In this document: positions 8,335 through 31,397 of the stretch, in pieces
How the letters are laid out: the number at the start of each line of letters is the position of its first letter
Position numbering within the stretch: the stretch's first letter is position 1
Assembly (NCBI GenBank): GCA_028293125.1
Contig: JAQGPJ010000055.1
Span: forward strand, 62,001 to 126,000
Source: Verrucomicrobiales bacterium
Lineage (GTDB): Bacteria; Verrucomicrobiota; Verrucomicrobiia; Verrucomicrobiales; V1-33
Direction: 5' to 3'
DNA: 64,000 bases
Notes under the pieces: generated by a model
The model's database searches: none
What the model saw: the letters and a program-made list of their open reading frames with translations, nothing else
What the model was told of the DNA's origin: nothing
Program-made: the position numbers and the translations under genes

Positions 8335-9402
8335 TCAGCCCGCCTCCTCCTTGTTGTAGTAAACCTTCACGAAGCTCATCTGCTTCTCGTCATCAAACCC
8401 GCGCTCCAGCACGTTTTTGTGGCGGTCGGAGAATTTGGGCCCAAGGCGGATTTCCACGCCAGTGTCGAACTTCATCACGGCTCCGATTTTCTTTTTGGCT
8501 TTGCCGACGTCCTTTTTGGAAATTTCGAATTTCTTCTCCAGAGGCTGGCCTTGGCCGCTTTCAAATTCAGCCACATGCTCGTGGAATTTGGCCACCGCCT
8601 CCGGCGACTTCAGCACCTCGGTCTCGAATTCGCTCATGTCGAAAACGTCCTTCTCCTCGAAATAGGCCAGAGCATCGCTGGCGGCGGAAAGCGCCTCCTC
8701 AGGGGCGGAGGAGGAGGCTGGCTTCTCCTGCTCCAGAAAGGAGGTGGCCAACCCGGTGTAGGCACTGGTGAGATAGGCGGCGTCCGGCACGGCATGCACA
8801 CCCAGAAAATCCCGCACCCAGAACCGCGACTCCCCACCCGTCCGGTCGAAGGTCAGGACGTAGTACCCTTGGTCCGGACAATAGTTCAGGATCAGGCATC
8901 CCTTGTCGATCTTGTCCGGCAGGATGCCTTGCTCCGTGCGCAGCTGCAGGTCGCCGTCCCGCGTGGAGATGCTGAGGAAAGGCACCACGCTCTCGGATTT
9001 CAGAATGCACAGGGCGTTCACAAACTGGTCGTCCACCTCCACATTCGAAACCAAGACAATGCAGAGATCGCCGGATTTGATGTTGGGATGGTTGGACTTG
9101 GCATACAGCCGCTTCGCGATGGCGATGCCTTTGTCCAGCAGGGCATCGGGCGATTCGAAAATGGCGGCGCTGCACTTGTGCATCTCGTGCTGCTCCAGCG
9201 AGGAGGAGTGGTGGCTGAAACGGTGCCCCACCAGATTCCGGAAGGGTTTTAGGAAGATGCCCGTCAGGGTCTCCCGGTCCTCTTCCGCGATCTGGAATAC
9301 GTCACGGGAGGTCTGAAGCGGCTCGTCGCGCTGGGGATTGCCCACCTTGGCGAGAACGGCACCGGTGACGGAGGCGGAATTGAAGCGGATTTTGACAGAC
9401 AT
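8335..9402 (-). CDS. Nucleoid-associated protein, NdpA/YejK family
   Basis: MSVKIRFNSASVTGAVLAKVGNPQRDEPLQTSRDVFQIAEEDRETLTGIFLKPFRNLVGHRFSHHSSLEQHEM; matches the 37-kDa nucleoid-associated protein pattern. Confidence 0.78.
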   Translation of the reverse strand: MSVKIRFNSASVTGAVLAKVGNPQRDEPLQTSRDVFQIAEEDRETLTGIFLKPFRNLVGHRFSHHSSSLEQHEMHKCSAAIFESPDALLDKGIAIAKRLYAKSNHPNIKSGDLCIVLVSNVEVDDQFVNALCILKSESVVPFLSISTRDGDLQLRTEQGILPDKIDKGCLILNYCPDQGYYVLTFDRTGGESRFWVRDFLGVHAVPDAAYLTSAYTGLATSFLEQEKPASSSAPEEALSAASDALAYFEEKDVFDMSEFETEVLKSPEAVAKFHEHVAEFESGQGQPLEKKFEISKKDVGKAKKKIGAVMKFDTGVEIRLGPKFSDRHKNVLERGFDDEKQMSFVKVYYNKEEAG

Positions 9403-23759: not shown

Positions 23760-24875
23760 TCAGGCAGTGCCGGCGGTGGAATACGCGCGGCCTTTCCACA
23801 CCGCCGGCCTTTTGCGGAGTAAGCGGAAAAATGCGAACCACTGAATGGCCACCAGCACGCAGATGCCCAGCGGATGGAGAAGCACTCCGGCCAGCGGCTG
23901 GCGGAAGCGGTGAACGGCGGCCAGCCGCGGAAGGAGCACCGCCGTGAGAGCGGCGAATGAAAGGGGTGAAGGCGCAGCCAGCACCAGCGCCAAGGGAAGC
24001 ACCTGCCCGCCCAGCAGCAGCAGGGTGGAAGGCAGGATCAGCTGCGGGCTGGCGAGGCCTTCGTGGGCGTTCTTCGCAAATCCCTGCCAGACTTCACGCG
24101 CACTCTGATACATCCGGCAGCGGAAGCCACCGGTGGCGTCGAAAAGATCGGTGTGGAATCCGTGCGTGCGGAGGCTGCGCGCCAGGGCCAGTCCATCGTG
24201 CAGTTGATCAGCGACAGCCCCGTGGCCTCCGCTGCTTTCATAAGCTTCACGGCGGACAGTCAGAATTTGCCCACAGGCGGCGGCAAAACGCGGATCCGTG
24301 CCGCTTCTCATCCGCCCGATGGGCAGGAATCCCAGCAGCACAAAGTGGATCAACGGTATGATCAGCCGCTCCATGAAGGTGTGCGTCTCCTCATACGGCA
24401 CGCCGCTGGCCAGAGCGGCGCGGGACGTGTCCATGAAGCCGGCAAGCCGTGCGAGGGCGTCCGGGTCTGTGACGCGCACGTCGGCATCCATGAAAACCAG
24501 CAGCGGATGGCGCGCCAGTGAGGCCAGACGCGCGCAGGCATGATTTTTTCCGCACCATCCCGGCGGCAGCGGAGGTGCCGCCTCCAGGCGCACACGCATA
24601 TCCCGCGCGGCGAACCTGCGGACAATCTCCGCCGTGCGGTCGGTGGAGCTGTCATCAAGGACGATCACCTCCAGATCAACCCCTCCGCTTTCCAGCACGG
24701 AACGGAGCGCGTCCGCGATATTCGCCTCCTCGTTGCGGGCGGGAATGAGCACGGAGCAGCGGCGGCGTTCCCCGCAGGCGGGCGGGAGGCTGCGGTAGAG
24801 CGGCAGGTTGCGCAGAAACAGGACCGCCGGGATCAGCGCCAAAACAAACGCGGCCATGGTGAGAGCAGTGATCAT
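23760..24875 (-). CDS. Family 2 glycosyltransferase, carotenoid-cluster (CrtQ-like)
   Basis: CSVLIPARNEEANIADALRSVLESGGVDLEVIVLDDSSTDRTAEIVRRF; LVFMDADVRVTDPDALARLA; 4-bp overlap with upstream gene. Confidence 0.82.
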   Translation of the reverse strand: MITALTMAAFVLALIPAVLFLRNLPLYRSLPPACGERRRCSVLIPARNEEANIADALRSVLESGGVDLEVIVLDDSSTDRTAEIVRRFAARDMRVRLEAAPPLPPGWCGKNHACARLASLARHPLLVFMDADVRVTDPDALARLAGFMDTSRAALASGVPYEETHTFMERLIIPLIHFVLLGFLPIGRMRSGTDPRFAAACGQILTVRREAYESSGGHGAVADQLHDGLALARSLRTHGFHTDLFDATGGFRCRMYQSAREVWQGFAKNAHEGLASPQLILPSTLLLLGGQVLPLALVLAAPSPLSFAALTAVLLPRLAAVHRFRQPLAGVLLHPLGICVLVAIQWFAFFRLLRKRPAVWKGRAYSTAGTA

Positions 24876-25678
24876 GGGGCGCTTTGCGGAGAATGCTCAG
24901 CGGTGAATTTTCCGCCGCGCACTCTGGCGCGCAGCCGCCGCCATGTGTCATAGATGGCCCCGACGCCGGTCCGTCCCCGGCTGAGGGTGAGCCAGTCGGC
25001 GGGATCGCGCCGGCAGGAGCACGCGGCCAGCTCATCCTGCGCGGCTTCGAGAGCACCGGTGAACGTGCGCGTCCATTCCGCCGTCGTCCGGGATTCCCGG
25101 GTACTGACCGGCGCGCCGAAGCTGACAAGAATTTCAGGGCGCGGCTCGGTCCAGAAAGCATATTCAATAGCCAACGGCACGAACATGGCGTCCGGCCCGC
25201 GCGCCGCCAGCGCGCCGAGTCCGTCCTCAAACTGCAGCGGACGCTCGCGCGTGTCGGTGAAGCGGCCCTGCGGCGTGAGCCAGAGGGCCTGCGAGGGTGA
25301 GGCGAGGACCGCGTGCGCGGTGCGGAGGAAGGCGCGTGCGCCCCGGGCGGTGCGGGGTTCGACTCCGAAAAAGCCGAGCTTCCGGAAAAAGCCGTAGCGT
25401 GCCAGCATGGCGGAATCGATCGGGGCGAAGGAGGTGCGGTCCGAAAAAAATTCGCGCGCCAGCAGCAGACATACAAGTGGATCCCACCACGCGGCGTGAT
25501 TCACATGGATGACCAGCGGGTGCCCGCAGCCGCGCGGGGGCATGCCGCTTTTCAAAATCCGCAGCGAGTGGAAGTGCTGGCCCACATAGCGGCGCGAATA
25601 GGCCGCAAACATTTTGACGAAGACAGGCGACGCCGGCGGCAGCGTGGTGCCCGTGGGCCAGGAGGCAGGGGTTTTCAT
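24872..25678 (-). CDS. 1-acyl-glycerol-3-phosphate acyltransferase-like (carotenoid acyltransferase candidate)
   Basis: PLVIHVNHAAWWDPLVCLLLAREFF (HxxxxD), LWLTPQGRFTDTRERPLQFEDGL. Confidence 0.78.
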   Translation of the reverse strand: MKTPASWPTGTTLPPASPVFVKMFAAYSRRYVGQHFHSLRILKSGMPPRGCGHPLVIHVNHAAWWDPLVCLLLAREFFSDRTSFAPIDSAMLARYGFFRKLGFFGVEPRTARGARAFLRTAHAVLASPSQALWLTPQGRFTDTRERPLQFEDGLGALAARGPDAMFVPLAIEYAFWTEPRPEILVSFGAPVSTRESRTTAEWTRTFTGALEAAQDELAACSCRRDPADWLTLSRGRTGVGAIYDTWRRLRARVRGGKFTAEHSPQSAP

Positions 25679-27219
25679 GCGGCTGTATCCGCGGTTTTCC
25701 CGGCCGGCCGGGAGGCTGCGGCACTATCACGGTCAAGAGTGTCGGCGGCGATCCAGCCGGACATGAGTACCATGGGCATGCCGGGACCGGGATGCGCCGC
25801 GCCGCCGGCAAGGTAGAGCCCGCGCAGATCGGCGCTGCGGTTGCCGGGTTTGAACGCACCGAGGAATTTGCCGTGGCTCGCGAGACCGTAAATGGCCCCG
25901 TTCAGCACGTGGTAGCGCTCGTGAATATCCTGCGGCGTGAGAGTGCTCTCATAGACGATGCGCTCTTCGATGTCCGGCATCCGGCCGGTGCGCTTCAGTT
26001 TTTCCAGGATCACGCGCCGGTATTCCGGCAGCATTTTTTTCCAATCATGATGCGGGCGCAGATACGGCGTGTGCACAAGCACATAAAGCGCTTCACCTCC
26101 GGCCGGCGCAGTGCCGGGCTCGGTGCAGGTGGTGGCGGCCAGATAACAGGTGGGATCGGGTGCGGGCTCCCCCTTTTTGTAGATCCACTCGAACTCCTCG
26201 TGCGGGTCGCGGCTGAAAACGAAGCCGTGATGCGCCAGATGGTCATAACGTTTGGACAGCCCGAGGTACAGCACCACACCCGAGCAGGCGGGCTCATAGC
26301 GGCGGCGGCGCTCGAAGCGGCCACCCGCCTCATCACTGACCAGTTCCCGGTGGGTGCGCACGGAATCACAGTTCGACACCACCGCGCTGAGGGCCACCTC
26401 CTCACCGGCATCAGTGCGCACTCCGGTGACTGTCCCTGCGTGCGACAGGATTTTTTCGATTTTCACCCCGGTGCGGAATTCGACGCCCAGTCCGCGCGCC
26501 AGCTTTTCGAGCGCGAGCGGCACCGCGCGCGTGCCGCCGATGGGATACCACACGCCCTCATCGGTCTGCATGTGGGCAATGCCGCACAGCACCGCCGGCG
26601 AGCCTTGGGGTGATGAGCCGACATACTGCGTGAAGTGGTCCATCATCTGCGCCACCCGCGCATCGGGAGTGAAGGCGCGCACTGTGCCAGCGACCGAGCG
26701 CCCCATGCGCATCGCCAGCACATCGCCCAGCATCCCCGGATCAAACGACGAGCGCCAGTCGAACATGTCACGCAACCCGCCGATCGGCTTGTAAAAAAAG
26801 TGCCTCTGGGAAATGCGGTCGAGGCGCGCGCTGTAGTCGATAAATTCTTGGTAGCGCGCACCGGATGCGGTGCCGGGCGCGAACTCATCCAGCGTGCGGG
26901 CCATCGCAGCAGTGTCCTGCGCGAGATCAAGGACTGAGCCGTCCTCAAAAAAGCAGCGCCACTGGGGGTCCAGCCGCACCAACTGCAAATAATCCTCCAT
27001 GCGTGCGCCGGCCTCATTGAAAATGCGGCGGAGCACCGAGGGAATGGTCACGATGGTCGGCCCCATGTCAAAGCGGAAGCCACCGCCGGTGAGCTGTGCG
27101 GCCTTGCCGCCGAGCCAGTCGTTGCGCTCAAAGAGAATGACCCGGTGGCCGCGCGCGGCCAGCACGCAGGCTGCGGAAAGGCCCCCCAGACCGCCGCCGA
27201 TAATGCCGATCGGTTTCAT
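25675..27219 (-). CDS. CrtN/CrtP-family carotenoid desaturase/oxygenase
   Basis: IGIIGGGLGGLSAACVLAARGHRVILFERNDWLGGKAAQLTGGGFRFDMGPTIVTIPSVLRRIF; LRGLYLAGGAAHPGPGMPMVLMSGWIAADTL. Confidence 0.9.
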   Translation of the reverse strand: MKPIGIIGGGLGGLSAACVLAARGHRVILFERNDWLGGKAAQLTGGGFRFDMGPTIVTIPSVLRRIFNEAGARMEDYLQLVRLDPQWRCFFEDGSVLDLAQDTAAMARTLDEFAPGTASGARYQEFIDYSARLDRISQRHFFYKPIGGLRDMFDWRSSFDPGMLGDVLAMRMGRSVAGTVRAFTPDARVAQMMDHFTQYVGSSPQGSPAVLCGIAHMQTDEGVWYPIGGTRAVPLALEKLARGLGVEFRTGVKIEKILSHAGTVTGVRTDAGEEVALSAVVSNCDSVRTHRELVSDEAGGRFERRRRYEPACSGVVLYLGLSKRYDHLAHHGFVFSRDPHEEFEWIYKKGEPAPDPTCYLAATTCTEPGTAPAGGEALYVLVHTPYLRPHHDWKKMLPEYRRVILEKLKRTGRMPDIEERIVYESTLTPQDIHERYHVLNGAIYGLASHGKFLGAFKPGNRSADLRGLYLAGGAAHPGPGMPMVLMSGWIAADTLDRDSAAASRPAGKTADTAA

Positions 27220-28532
27220 GATTTTGACTTTGTGGTTTTGATTTTGGTGAGGATCGCCCGGAAAAGACCGGGAAGCGCCCGGAGCCGGTTGCGGCCATGG
27301 GCGGCACGCAGCCAGGCGGAGAAAAACGCCGCGTCGTCCACGGACGGCTCATCGAAATGCGGGTGCATGCCTCCGCGGCGCACCGCGACGACGTGCGGAA
27401 AGGTCATTTCGAGCAGCCCCTCCGCACCCCGCGTGATGCCGAATCCGCTCGCCTTCACCCCGCCGAACGGCATCCGTGGATCGGCGGTGGGAACGATCAG
27501 ATCGTTGATGGTGACAAATCCGGTCCTCAGACGGGACGCAAGCCGGTGCGCACTGGCAGGGTCGCCGGAGAAAATGGCGGCCCCAAGCGCGAAATCGGCG
27601 GCATTGACCAGCGCGGCGGCGGCATCAGCATCCCGGACCGTTTGAACCGGCGGCACGGGCGCTCCATCTGCTCCGGCAAGGCGTCCCGCCAACTCCCCCG
27701 CCATGGATCCGACCGCAAGGATGCGGCGTGGCGCGATGCATGTTCCCCCGGCATTCAGCCGCAGGCCAAAACGCAGGGCGCGCACCGCGAGCTCCAAATC
27801 GGCGTCCTCCAGGACGATAACGGTGTCCATGCCCGAGAGCTCCATCACCGACGGTGTATTGGTGTCCGCAAGCCGGGCGAGGACGGATCGGCCATTTTCC
27901 GAGGAGCCGGTGAAGATGACCTTGTCGGCTCCATAGGCGACCGCCTCGCGCGATTCAGCCCCGGTGTCACCGAGAATTTCGAGTAATGGGAAAGGAAGAC
28001 CGGCTGCAAAAGCAAGGCGGGCCACGGCAAGCGCAACGTGGCGCGTGCCCGGAGCAGGTTTAAGGCGGACCGCGTTTCCCGCGACGAGAGCGTGCAGCGT
28101 GTGCACGGCGGGGAGAAAAAGCGGGTAATTGCCGGGACCAATGACAAGCACCGTGCCAAAGGGCCGGCGCTGCACTTCAAAGTCCATACCATGCAGCCAA
28201 AGCGGGCGGCCTTTCCTGCCATGAAACCGTGGTGCCAGCACCTTCGGGGCGTTGCGCTCAAGCCATTGGCAGGCATCCGCCAGCGGCAGCACCTCGGAGA
28301 CAAGCTTCTCCGCCAATGGCCGGTCCCGCACCGATGCCGCCTCCGCCGCCAGGGATTCGGCGTTCTCGGCGATCAGATGGCGGAGTCTGCGGATAAACGC
28401 CAGCCGGTCGCGCACCGGCGTTTCCTCCCAGCGCAGCTGAGCTGTGCGGACGCCGTCCTGCACGGGGCCAGGATTCCGTCCGCCAGGCGGCGGCTCCTGT
28501 CGTGACCGTGCGGTATTGGCAGGCGCATTCAT
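27216..28532 (-). CDS. Aldehyde dehydrogenase (apo-carotenal/diapolycopenal dehydrogenase candidate)
   Basis: GTVLVIGPGNYPLFLPAVHTLHALVAGNAVRLKPAPGT; VIFTGSSENGRSVLARLA; PRMPFGGVKASGFGITRGAEGLLEMTFPHVVAVRR. Confidence 0.82.
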   Translation of the reverse strand: MNAPANTARSRQEPPPGGRNPGPVQDGVRTAQLRWEETPVRDRLAFIRRLRHLIAENAESLAAEAASVRDRPLAEKLVSEVLPLADACQWLERNAPKVLAPRFHGRKGRPLWLHGMDFEVQRRPFGTVLVIGPGNYPLFLPAVHTLHALVAGNAVRLKPAPGTRHVALAVARLAFAAGLPFPLLEILGDTGAESREAVAYGADKVIFTGSSENGRSVLARLADTNTPSVMELSGMDTVIVLEDADLELAVRALRFGLRLNAGGTCIAPRRILAVGSMAGELAGRLAGADGAPVPPVQTVRDADAAAALVNAADFALGAAIFSGDPASAHRLASRLRTGFVTINDLIVPTADPRMPFGGVKASGFGITRGAEGLLEMTFPHVVAVRRGGMHPHFDEPSVDDAAFFSAWLRAAHGRNRLRALPGLFRAILTKIKTTKSKS

Positions 28533-30103
28533 GGGAGGGAGCGTGCGGCTTCCAGAATTGATTCGGGAGCGTTGAGCATCGGGGCGGACACGATGCCTGA
28601 TCCACTGGATGGAAAGTGAACCGGCTTCACTCCCAGGTCGGCGAGCAGCAGCCGGGTGCTGATGCGCGCGCTTTCAAAAATGACCGGCAGACCACTGCCC
28701 GGATGGGTGCCGCCGCCCACCAGGTAAATACCGTCCACATCCTCAAAGCGGTTCCGGGGCCTCAGGTGCAGCATCTGATCGAGGCTGTGGGCCAAGTTGA
28801 AGGTGGCCCCGAGGTGGATGTCATACTGGGTGTCCCAATCAGCGGGGGTGACGATGCGTTCGAAGCGGATGCGGCGCTCAATATCGGTGAAGCCGGCCTT
28901 CTCGATCTGTTTCAGCATTTTGGCGCGGAAGCGCTCCCGCTCCCGGGGCCAATCCACATTGGGGTGCTGATGCGTGACCGGTGCGAGAACGTAAAGGGTG
29001 CTGCACCCGGCAGGAGCCATCGATGGATCGGTGACGCAGGCATTCTGCACATAGAACGAGGGATCGTCCGAAAGCACATGCCGCCGTTCGATCTCATCGA
29101 GATTGCGCGCGTAGTCAGCAGCGATGTGGATGCTGTGATGCGGCAGGTCGAAGGCGCCCTCCACGCCCAAGTACATCATGAAGGTGGAGCAGGAGAATTT
29201 CTTACTGGCAATTTTGCGGTCACTCCAGCGGCGGCGCAGACCGTCAGGCACGAGGCGGTGCATCGACCGCGCGAAGTCGGCATTCATCACAATGGCGCGC
29301 GCTTTCTCCACTCCCGCCGCCGTCCGCACTCCGACCGCGCGCCGGCCTTCGAAAAGCACTTCCTCCACTGGCGAATCGAGGACGATTTCAACCCCCAGCC
29401 GCTGCGCCGTCCGCGCCATCGCCGCCGTGACCGCCGCGCATCCTCCCAGCGGATGGAAGACGCCGTATTCATATTCAAGAAAGGAAAGGATTGAAAAAAG
29501 ACTCGGACAGCGGAACGGCGACATGCCGAGATACTTTGATTGGAAGGAGAACGCCAGCCGGATGCGCGGATCCCGGAAAAAGCGCCCGAGATAGGTGTCC
29601 ATCGACTGATGGGGCCGGAGCATCGGCAGCATTTTCAGGAGGCGTGTCTGCGCAAGGTCCTGCCAGCCCAGAAATGGCAGCCCAAGGCACGGCTCCATGC
29701 AGGCAAGTTTCTGCCGGTTCTCCTTAAGAAACCGCCGGAAGCCTGGAGCATCCGCCGGCGCGATGGCCGCGATCTCCCGCTCCATGCGTTCTATATCCGG
29801 TGTGGCGTCAATCTTTCCGCCACTGCCGAAAAGGATGCGGTACTGCGGGTCGAGCCGCACCATGGGCACCTCTTCGGCAAGCGATGTCCCGGCGGCTTGA
29901 AAAATTTCATCCAGCACACGGGGATAGAGGAAAAACGTGGGTCCCAGATCAAACCTGAAGCCATCCGCCTCAATCGCCGAAGTGCGCCCGCCGACGGTCG
30001 GCAGCCGCTCGATGATTTTTACCTTCAGCCCTTGGGCGGCAAGCAGGATCGCGGAGGCAAGCCCGCCGGGGCCGGCACCGATGATGATGGCGTCGTGTTT
30101 CAC
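28529..30103 (-). CDS. crtN: CrtN-family carotenoid (dehydrosqualene/phytoene) desaturase
   Basis: AIIIGAGPGGLASAILLAAQGLKVKIIERLPTVGGRTSAIEADGFRFDLGPTFFLYPRVLDEIF; VDGIYLVGGGTHPGSGLPVIFESARISTRLLL. Confidence 0.85.
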   Translation of the reverse strand: MKHDAIIIGAGPGGLASAILLAAQGLKVKIIERLPTVGGRTSAIEADGFRFDLGPTFFLYPRVLDEIFQAAGTSLAEEVPMVRLDPQYRILFGSGGKIDATPDIERMEREIAAIAPADAPGFRRFLKENRQKLACMEPCLGLPFLGWQDLAQTRLLKMLPMLRPHQSMDTYLGRFFRDPRIRLAFSFQSKYLGMSPFRCPSLFSILSFLEYEYGVFHPLGGCAAVTAAMARTAQRLGVEIVLDSPVEEVLFEGRRAVGVRTAAGVEKARAIVMNADFARSMHRLVPDGLRRRWSDRKIASKKFSCSTFMMYLGVEGAFDLPHHSIHIAADYARNLDEIERRHVLSDDPSFYVQNACVTDPSMAPAGCSTLYVLAPVTHQHPNVDWPRERERFRAKMLKQIEKAGFTDIERRIRFERIVTPADWDTQYDIHLGATFNLAHSLDQMLHLRPRNRFEDVDGIYLVGGGTHPGSGLPVIFESARISTRLLLADLGVKPVHFPSSGSGIVSAPMLNAPESILEAARSLP

Positions 30104-30115
30104 AGGGCAGCAGGG

Positions 30116-30322
30116 TCAGAATTTTGTCTTTACTCCGCAGGCCCGGAGTGCGCACCAGCCACGCGCCGCCTCGAAGGCCACAAAGGCTGCCGAGACACCG
30201 AGCACAAAGGCGGCGGCACGGGAATGGGGCCATGCGCAGACAGCGCCTACAACCAGACCAAGAGCGCCGGCGGCGCGGATAAGGCGGCCTTTCGGGCCTA
30301 TATTCGGACTGAGAAAAGACAT
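30116..30322 (-). CDS. Small membrane protein, DUF2892/YgaP-like, first gene of the carotenoid operon
   Basis: NIGPKGRLIRAAGALGLVVGAVCAWPHSRAAAFVLGVSAAFVAFEAARGWCALRACGVKTKF; N-terminal NxG..R.IR and C-terminal GWC.L...G..T pattern. Confidence 0.65.
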   Translation of the reverse strand: MSFLSPNIGPKGRLIRAAGALGLVVGAVCAWPHSRAAAFVLGVSAAFVAFEAARGWCALRACGVKTKF

Positions 30323-30349
30323 GGCGCAGTGCTTGGAAAGCTGCGCCAG

Positions 30350-30371
30350 TGTCTAAGTCTTGTCTAAGTAT
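30350..30371. promoter_or_regulatory. Two contiguous 11-bp direct repeats TGTCTAAGTCT/TGTCTAAGTAT, candidate CarH operator for the crt operon
   Basis: Direct reading; lies between a minus-strand TTGACA (-35-like) and the DUF2892 start. Confidence 0.65.
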
Positions 30372-30424
30372 GTCAACCTAAACTTGGACAATATTTCGGT
30401 GACACGCCGATTTTGATTGGCTGC

Positions 30425-30446
30425 TGTCTAGTTTGTGTCTAGTTGT
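30425..30446. promoter_or_regulatory. Two contiguous 11-bp direct repeats TGTCTAGTTTG/TGTCTAGTTGT, candidate autoregulatory CarH operator
   Basis: Direct reading; immediately upstream of the likely GTG start at 30456. Confidence 0.65.
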
Positions 30447-30455
30447 GCCCGATCC

Positions 30456-31397
30456 GTGTCCACCTCCTACTCCATTCAAGCCGCCGCCGACCGCACCGGC
30501 CTCACGCCCCATGTGATCCGTGCGTGGGAACGGCGTTACAAAGCCATTGAGCCTGAGCGTTCCTTGGGGAGACACCGGCTGTATTCCGAAGACGAGATTC
30601 AGCGGCTGTCCATGCTGCGCCGTGCTGTCGAAGCCGGACACAGCATCGGGCGGATTGCACGTCTGAGCGCGGGTGAGCTGGGAGCGCTCATCGCGGATTG
30701 TCCATCGGCCGAGCCTTTCAGCGCGTCGGCATCCGCCACCGATTCCGCTGCGCCTTTCCGTGCCCGGGCAATGGCTGCGGTCGAACTTTTCGACACTGCG
30801 GCGCTTGAAACCGCGCTCCGGAACTCACTCCTCGAACTCAGCCACAACGGGCTTCTGCAGATGGTGGTGGCACCGCTCGCGGAGGAAATCGGGGAACGCT
30901 GGCGCAGCGGTCAAATCACGGCGGCCCACGAGCATTTTTTCACTTCGGGAGTGAAGGTGTTTCTGGGCCAGCTGACGCGGCAGTTCGCGTTGCCGGCCAC
31001 CGCGCCGCGGATTATCGTCAGCACGCCGGCGGGGCAGCTGCACGAGCTTGGGGCGGTCATGGCCGCCGCCGCCGCCGCCAACCTCGGCTGGCACCCGGTT
31101 TATCTCGGTGTCAGCCTGCCCGCGCATGAAATCGCAGGTGCCGCGCTCCGCAGTGATGCCGTCGCCGTCGCGCTCAGCATTGTTTATCCTGAGGATGATC
31201 CGGGGCTCGCTGGCGAACTGACCGAACTGGCCCGGTTGCTCCCTGCCAGCATCCGGATCATGGCGGGCGGCCGCGCCGCGCGCGGATACTTCGAAACGCT
31301 GGCCCGCATCGGCGCGCTGTACGCCGACAGCATCGGGGAATTCGGCACCCAGCTTGACTCACTGCGCCGCGGCTCCGCCAAACACGGCCTTGTCTGA
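30456..31397 (+). CDS. MerR-family HTH + cobalamin-binding domain regulator, CarH/LitR-like photoreceptor
   Basis: YSIQAAADRTGLTPHVIRAWERRYKAIEPERSLGRHRLYSEDEIQRLSMLRRAVEAGHSIGRIA; W-RSGQITAAH-EH (W-x9-EH) then TPAGQLHELGAVMAAAAAANLGWHPVYLG (B12-binding). Track start is GTG 30435; GTG 30456 preferred because the repeats cover the upstream one. Confidence 0.88.
   Translation: MSTSYSIQAAADRTGLTPHVIRAWERRYKAIEPERSLGRHRLYSEDEIQRLSMLRRAVEAGHSIGRIARLSAGELGALIADCPSAEPFSASASATDSAAPFRARAMAAVELFDTAALETALRNSLLELSHNGLLQMVVAPLAEEIGERWRSGQITAAHEHFFTSGVKVFLGQLTRQFALPATAPRIIVSTPAGQLHELGAVMAAAAAANLGWHPVYLGVSLPAHEIAGAALRSDAVAVALSIVYPEDDPGLAGELTELARLLPASIRIMAGGRAARGYFETLARIGALYADSIGEFGTQLDSLRRGSAKHGLV

Follow-up and report, generated by a model that had tools for sequence, protein, structure and literature searches.

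The locus considered here lies in a 64,000-nucleotide stretch of a Verrucomicrobiales genome (assembly GCA_028293125.1, contig JAQGPJ010000055.1, positions 62,001 to 126,000 of the forward strand), referred to below as the window. An open reading frame at 30456 to 31397 on the forward strand, open from a GTG start and preceded by a second in-frame GTG at 30435, encodes a CarH-like protein of 313 amino acids. On the opposite strand and transcribed away from it lie six genes forming a carotenoid (crt) operon; an earlier note, made from the sequence alone, had described this divergent arrangement, and both the gene order and the domain matches agree with it. Two candidate CarH-type operator arrays, TGTCTAAGTCTTGTCTA at 30350 to 30366 and TGTCTAGTTTGTGTCTA at 30425 to 30441, occupy the intergenic region; these were absent from that note and were found in the present analysis. 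The domains, the fold, the residues of the adenosylcobalamin (AdoCbl) site, the synteny, and the operators at both promoters together provide good support for the view that the protein is a MerR/B12 regulator like CarH and controls the divergent carotenoid operon.

The protein consists of a MerR helix-turn-helix domain (residues 5 to 71), a four-helix B12-binding_2 domain (residues 107 to 172), and a Rossmann B12-binding domain (residues 185 to 287). The Pfam matches to MerR_1 (PF13411; 4.3e-16), B12-binding (8.7e-10), and B12-binding_2 (3.9e-6) each exceeded the curated cut-off, and the RxWERRY motif of the MerR domain was present as RAWERRY at residues 22 to 28. The top matches in a sequence search of the PDB were 3whp and 5c8d, both CarH of Thermus thermophilus (TtCarH), with an E value of about 4e-26. 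An AlphaFold model based on nine natural homologues (predicted local distance difference test score, 85.7) returned full-length TtCarH as the first structural match, while the B12 domain of the model taken alone matched CarH with template modelling scores of 0.85 to 0.87 and a root-mean-square deviation of 2.5 Å (5c8a). The combination of a MerR helix-turn-helix with a B12-binding module, for which the note had suggested profile and structure searches, was found by both. The closest named relatives of the protein were from metagenome-assembled genomes (MAGs) of Verrucomicrobiota.

Alignment to TtCarH placed the two segments that the note had singled out, W-RSGQITAAH-EH and GQLHELG, at residues 149 to 160 and 193 to 199, respectively. 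The residues that surround AdoCbl in the dark state were intact, with Trp149, Glu159, His160, and His196 corresponding to W131, E141, H142, and H177 of TtCarH. The codons for W149-R150-...-H158-E159-H160 (the Wx9EH element) span 30900 to 30935 on the forward strand, and that for His196, the predicted lower axial cobalt ligand, lies at 31041 to 31043 on the same strand. Among 41 homologues drawn from Verrucomicrobiota, Acidobacteriota, and others, the equivalents of W131, E141, and H142 were each conserved in 40 and that of H177 in all. The W-x9-EH hallmark is therefore complete at W149/E159/H160, with the correction that Arg, not His132, follows the Trp, and the loss of the Trp, His, or axial His residues, which would have spoken against the proposal, was not seen in the alignment. 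The B12 motif D/ExHx2G/P-x41-SxT/V-x22-27-GG was matched at all positions except one, by H196, G199, S241-x-V243, and G271-G272 with spacings of x41 and x27. The light-response signature (GxxW, EH, GxxH, and GxxxP; PMC11796333) was present in all four of its elements, the equivalent of TtCarH G192 was retained, and a profile of the protein and its relatives aligned to CtMerR across the shared W-R...EH stretch. The retained Trp also bears on whether the protein could be a B12-independent repressor of the CarA kind, antagonised by another protein. CarA lacks the Trp of Wx9EH and the residues flanking it, whereas Trp149 is present here, as its equivalent is in 40 of the 41 homologues, and the CarA pathway in myxobacteria is limited to one suborder (PMC9304148); we consider this explanation very improbable.

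CarH operators that have been mapped experimentally consist of 11-bp repeats in tandem, of the form nnnnTnnACAn (PMC9304148), and sequences of this form were found at both promoters by pattern search. Operator A, at the crt promoter, reads TTGACA TACT TAGACA AGACT TAGACA on the reverse strand (30350 to 30376) and comprises two 11-bp repeats, with a third spaced at 10 bp; TGTCTAAGTCTTGTCTA is followed by TGTCAA, which is TTGACA on the other strand and could serve as a -35 hexamer. It is adjoined by a half-site in the opposite orientation, TGGACA (TnnACA; 30385 to 30390, forward strand). Operator B, TGTCTA-N5-TGTCTA, lies just upstream of the carH start (30425 to 30441, forward strand), and its position makes autoregulation of carH probable. 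Operators A and B and the half-site were all conserved in the orthologues L037 to L039, in which the third repeat of operator A falls into exact 11-bp register. When one mismatch was allowed, TGTCTA-N5-TGTCTA occurred twice in the 6.48-Mb genome, both times in the carH/crt intergenic region, while the reversed control pattern occurred 10 times. Upstream of 42 homologues (the 41 and that of T. thermophilus), same-orientation TGTnnA pairs were found at a spacing of 11 bp in 18 cases, compared to 0.23 expected and a shuffle maximum of 3, and at the double period of 22 bp in 12 cases, while the remaining spacings gave 0 to 4. The repeats ahead of the T. thermophilus carH gene were also picked up by the scan. 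Across the rest of the window there was a single TGTnnA pair, at 9006, which was put down to chance. The crt operon of another genome, G132, bears a TnnACA 11-bp repeat (L116:6827-6843) although its carH homologue is on another contig, suggesting control in trans. No such repeat was found before the crt desaturase in G007, G016, G044, G055, G025, or G056, and G055 and G025 also had no CarH match.

From these data it is proposed, as a reading that we regard as quite probable, that the protein is a CarH-type repressor whose AdoCbl-bound oligomer blocks the crt operon and its own promoter in the dark and releases them in the light. In the dark, AdoCbl would be bound with His196 as the lower ligand and with Trp149, Glu159, and His160 packed on the adenosyl group, promoting the oligomer, the MerR domains of which would bind the tandem 11-bp repeats over the crt and carH promoters and so block both. 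Upon illumination, the Co-C bond would be broken, the adenosyl group would leave, and the oligomer would dissociate, allowing expression of the C30 carotenoid genes. A supply of AdoCbl is plausible, since the genome encodes a PduO-type adenosyltransferase (PF01923) and carries one cobalamin riboswitch.

Several observations weigh against this reading. The leading D/E of the B12 motif, two residues ahead of the axial His, is replaced by Gln; the equivalent of TtCarH His132 is Arg150; the R176-D201 salt bridge of the TtCarH dimer is replaced by Leu/Ser; and Gly160 is replaced by Ala. The score against the CarH equivalog NF052513 of NCBIfam was 121.2 bits, below the curated cut-off of 400 bits, and membership is not claimed; the assignment of the protein to the CarH kind, as a new member, follows from its architecture, residues, operators, and synteny rather than from that threshold. 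A sigma-70 promoter scan of 30000 to 30600 gave nothing that reached the threshold and no convincing -10 box, and for that reason no promoter is claimed beyond the TTGACA -35-like hexamer. The TtCarH variant H132A remains mostly tetrameric after illumination (PMC10442372). Lastly, the same genome encodes a paralogue (L050:9914-10918, reverse strand; G000:C88) that is 42% identical to the window protein.

The replacement of His132 bears on the light switch itself. In light-exposed TtCarH this residue becomes the upper cobalt ligand, and it is found in many but not all CarH proteins (PMC9304148); among the 41 homologues the position was occupied by Arg in 15, Gln in 12, and His in 1. Both the scarcity of His, which is absent in 40 of the 41, and the behavior of H132A would suit a sensor of AdoCbl level that binds AdoCbl and DNA with no useful light switch, so that carotenoid synthesis would be tied to B12 status. 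CtMerR, however, which has Arg at the same place, is a tetramer in the dark and a monomer in the light (PMC11796333). Furthermore, AdoCbl is inherently photolabile (established chemistry), the Trp and EH residues around the adenosyl group are retained, and the regulated target is a photoprotective pigment. A sensor of AdoCbl level alone is therefore deemed unlikely, and light dependence of the window protein remains likely by analogy, because CtMerR responds to light with the same Arg; by the same comparison, His132 would not be required for the response.

The two proteins also share the Arg after the signature Trp, GERWR...EH, GxLHE, and GxxxP, although the DNA-binding domain of CtMerR (PDB 8JBS and 8JBT) is unlike that of CarH, with 25% identity to that of TtCarH (PMC11796333). 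With Arg150 in place of His132, the textbook bis-His light state is predicted to be unavailable to the window protein, and the light state is probably an aquo- or hydroxo-cobalamin without bis-His ligation, as in CtMerR. Given the substitutions at His132, R176-D201, and Gly160, both the step that light triggers and the state of oligomerisation may likewise differ from those of Thermus and be nearer those of CtMerR. The note had described the mechanism as that established for Thermus and Myxococcus CarH; its assignment of the protein to the CarH-like regulators, with the divergent operon as target, stands, whereas the parallel with Thermus is supported in part, those three features of the Thermus protein being replaced. 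TtCarH (PDB 5C8D, 5C8E, and 5C8F) is about 30% identical to the window protein and shares its domain order, its W/E/H/H AdoCbl site, the tandem 11-bp operator, and a carH gene divergent from carotenoid genes, although the latter encode phytoene synthase, P450, and cyclase in Thermus rather than C30 desaturases, aldehyde dehydrogenase, acyltransferase, and glycosyltransferase.

The CarH/CarA system of Myxococcus xanthus (PMC9304148) is similar in its MerR and B12 domains, its control of carotenogenesis, its 11-bp direct repeats, and its same-genome paralogue, but it belongs to a separate phylum, governs a different carotenoid operon, and includes a CarA without the Trp. As with that pair, the crt operon could be mainly under the paralogue (G000:C88:36922-37812) or under both proteins, and the paralogue does carry the same AdoCbl residues, with W-R and HEH included. 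However, its surroundings contain no carotenoid genes and the DNA upstream of it lacks the 11-bp repeats, while the window gene adjoins the operators and keeps its synteny in other genomes. We judge control by the paralogue very unlikely, and the window protein is favored as the regulator.

The crt operon, on the reverse strand, comprises five enzyme genes and one gene for a small membrane protein, and the last five genes overlap by 4 bp each. The first gene (30116 to 30322) encodes a YgaP-like_TM protein of 68 amino acids (PF11127, 28.7 bits against a cut-off of 25.3). The upstream DNA of the orthologues L037 and L039 appears to resemble the window at this gene. The gene is followed by that of a CrtI/CrtN-family desaturase (desaturase 1, 28529 to 30103; TIGR02734, 533 bits), an aldehyde dehydrogenase predicted to be the AldH of a C30 pathway (27216 to 28532; PF00171, 229 bits), a second desaturase/oxidase of the CrtI/CrtP family (25675 to 27219; TIGR02734, 412 bits), an acyltransferase (24872 to 25678; PF01553), and a family-2 glycosyltransferase that is HpnB/CruG-like by profile matches (23760 to 24875). 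Two SQS_PSY proteins are encoded elsewhere in the genome, one of which is nearest to HpnD yet falls under the HpnD cut-off. The C30 carotenoid genes of Methylobacterium extorquens (PMC10448405) served as the guide for reading the pathway, and the verrucomicrobial Rubritalea squalenifaciens makes xylosyl esters of diapolycopenedioic acid, a C30 compound (PMC3967232). By analogy, the product is likely a glycosylated and acylated C30 diapolycopenedioic acid derived from squalene. Both systems resemble the present one in combining desaturase/oxidase with glycosyl- and acyltransferase tailoring, while the synthases for a squalene-type precursor are encoded at other places in the genome; the window differs in that its genes form a single operon beside a CarH-type gene and that its product is predicted from the genes.

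The whole divergent carH/crt arrangement is retained in L039 and the adjacent desaturase in L037, while in L054 the gene for a more distantly related CarH homologue immediately precedes an equivalent crt operon. In a phylogenetic tree the window protein grouped on a long stem with the three MAG proteins L037 to L039 (100/100 support), apart from the CarH homologues in other genomes of its own genus, which suggests that the regulator may have traveled with the crt cluster. The deeper forks were unsettled, and TtCarH formed a long branch without a reliable position.

A second type of regulator was found in sister genomes. A MerR domain with 45 to 49% identity to that of the window protein is encoded immediately upstream of the equivalent crt operon in G011 and G031; G023, G067, G089, G107, and G127 also have such a gene, there transcribed divergently from the gene of a desaturase that shares about 43% identity with desaturase 1. 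These regulators (L104:9701-10672 (-), L105:6205-7185 (+), L106:8283-9257 (+), L107:8588-9589 (+), L108:9128-10126 (+), L109:809-1807 (-), and L110:5397-6398 (-)), all beside carotenoid genes, have a DNA-binding domain like that of CarH but no B12 domain. Their C-terminal part gave no Pfam or NCBIfam match and carries the invariant residues C261-x-C263-P-x-H266 ... C284-E-x-R ... H295 (L104 numbering), that is, CECPxHL...CExR...H; a PDB sequence search gave a clear match for the DNA-binding domain only. The same 11-bp repeats were found upstream, with 15 pairs at spacing 11 compared to 0.09 expected. Across 142 genomes of the order, the Cys/His-rich type was present in 34 and the B12 type in about 50, with both only in G054 and no Cys/His-rich type in the window genome. 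The split follows families, and shared ancestry accordingly explains part of it. It is tentatively suggested, as a quite possible reading, that within this order the sensor module has been exchanged on a conserved operator-reading MerR domain, with an AdoCbl domain lacking bis-His ligation and using another photochemical route in one set of genomes and, before the same operon and the same type of repeats, an undescribed Cys/His-rich domain, perhaps a sensor of redox state, metal, or singlet oxygen, in sister genomes.

A full-text literature search for "Verrucomicrobia" with "CarH" found no paper, and a search on LitR/CarH distribution likewise found nothing. For Verrucomicrobiota, the present data, which include the operators, make a case at the level of the genome that light controls carotenoid synthesis through B12. 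With His132 nearly absent over the 41 homologues, bis-His ligation can be tested either as a refinement of the Thermus-like proteins or as something that the switch requires in general, and two sensor domains that go with one type of operator can be compared by way of the sister genomes.
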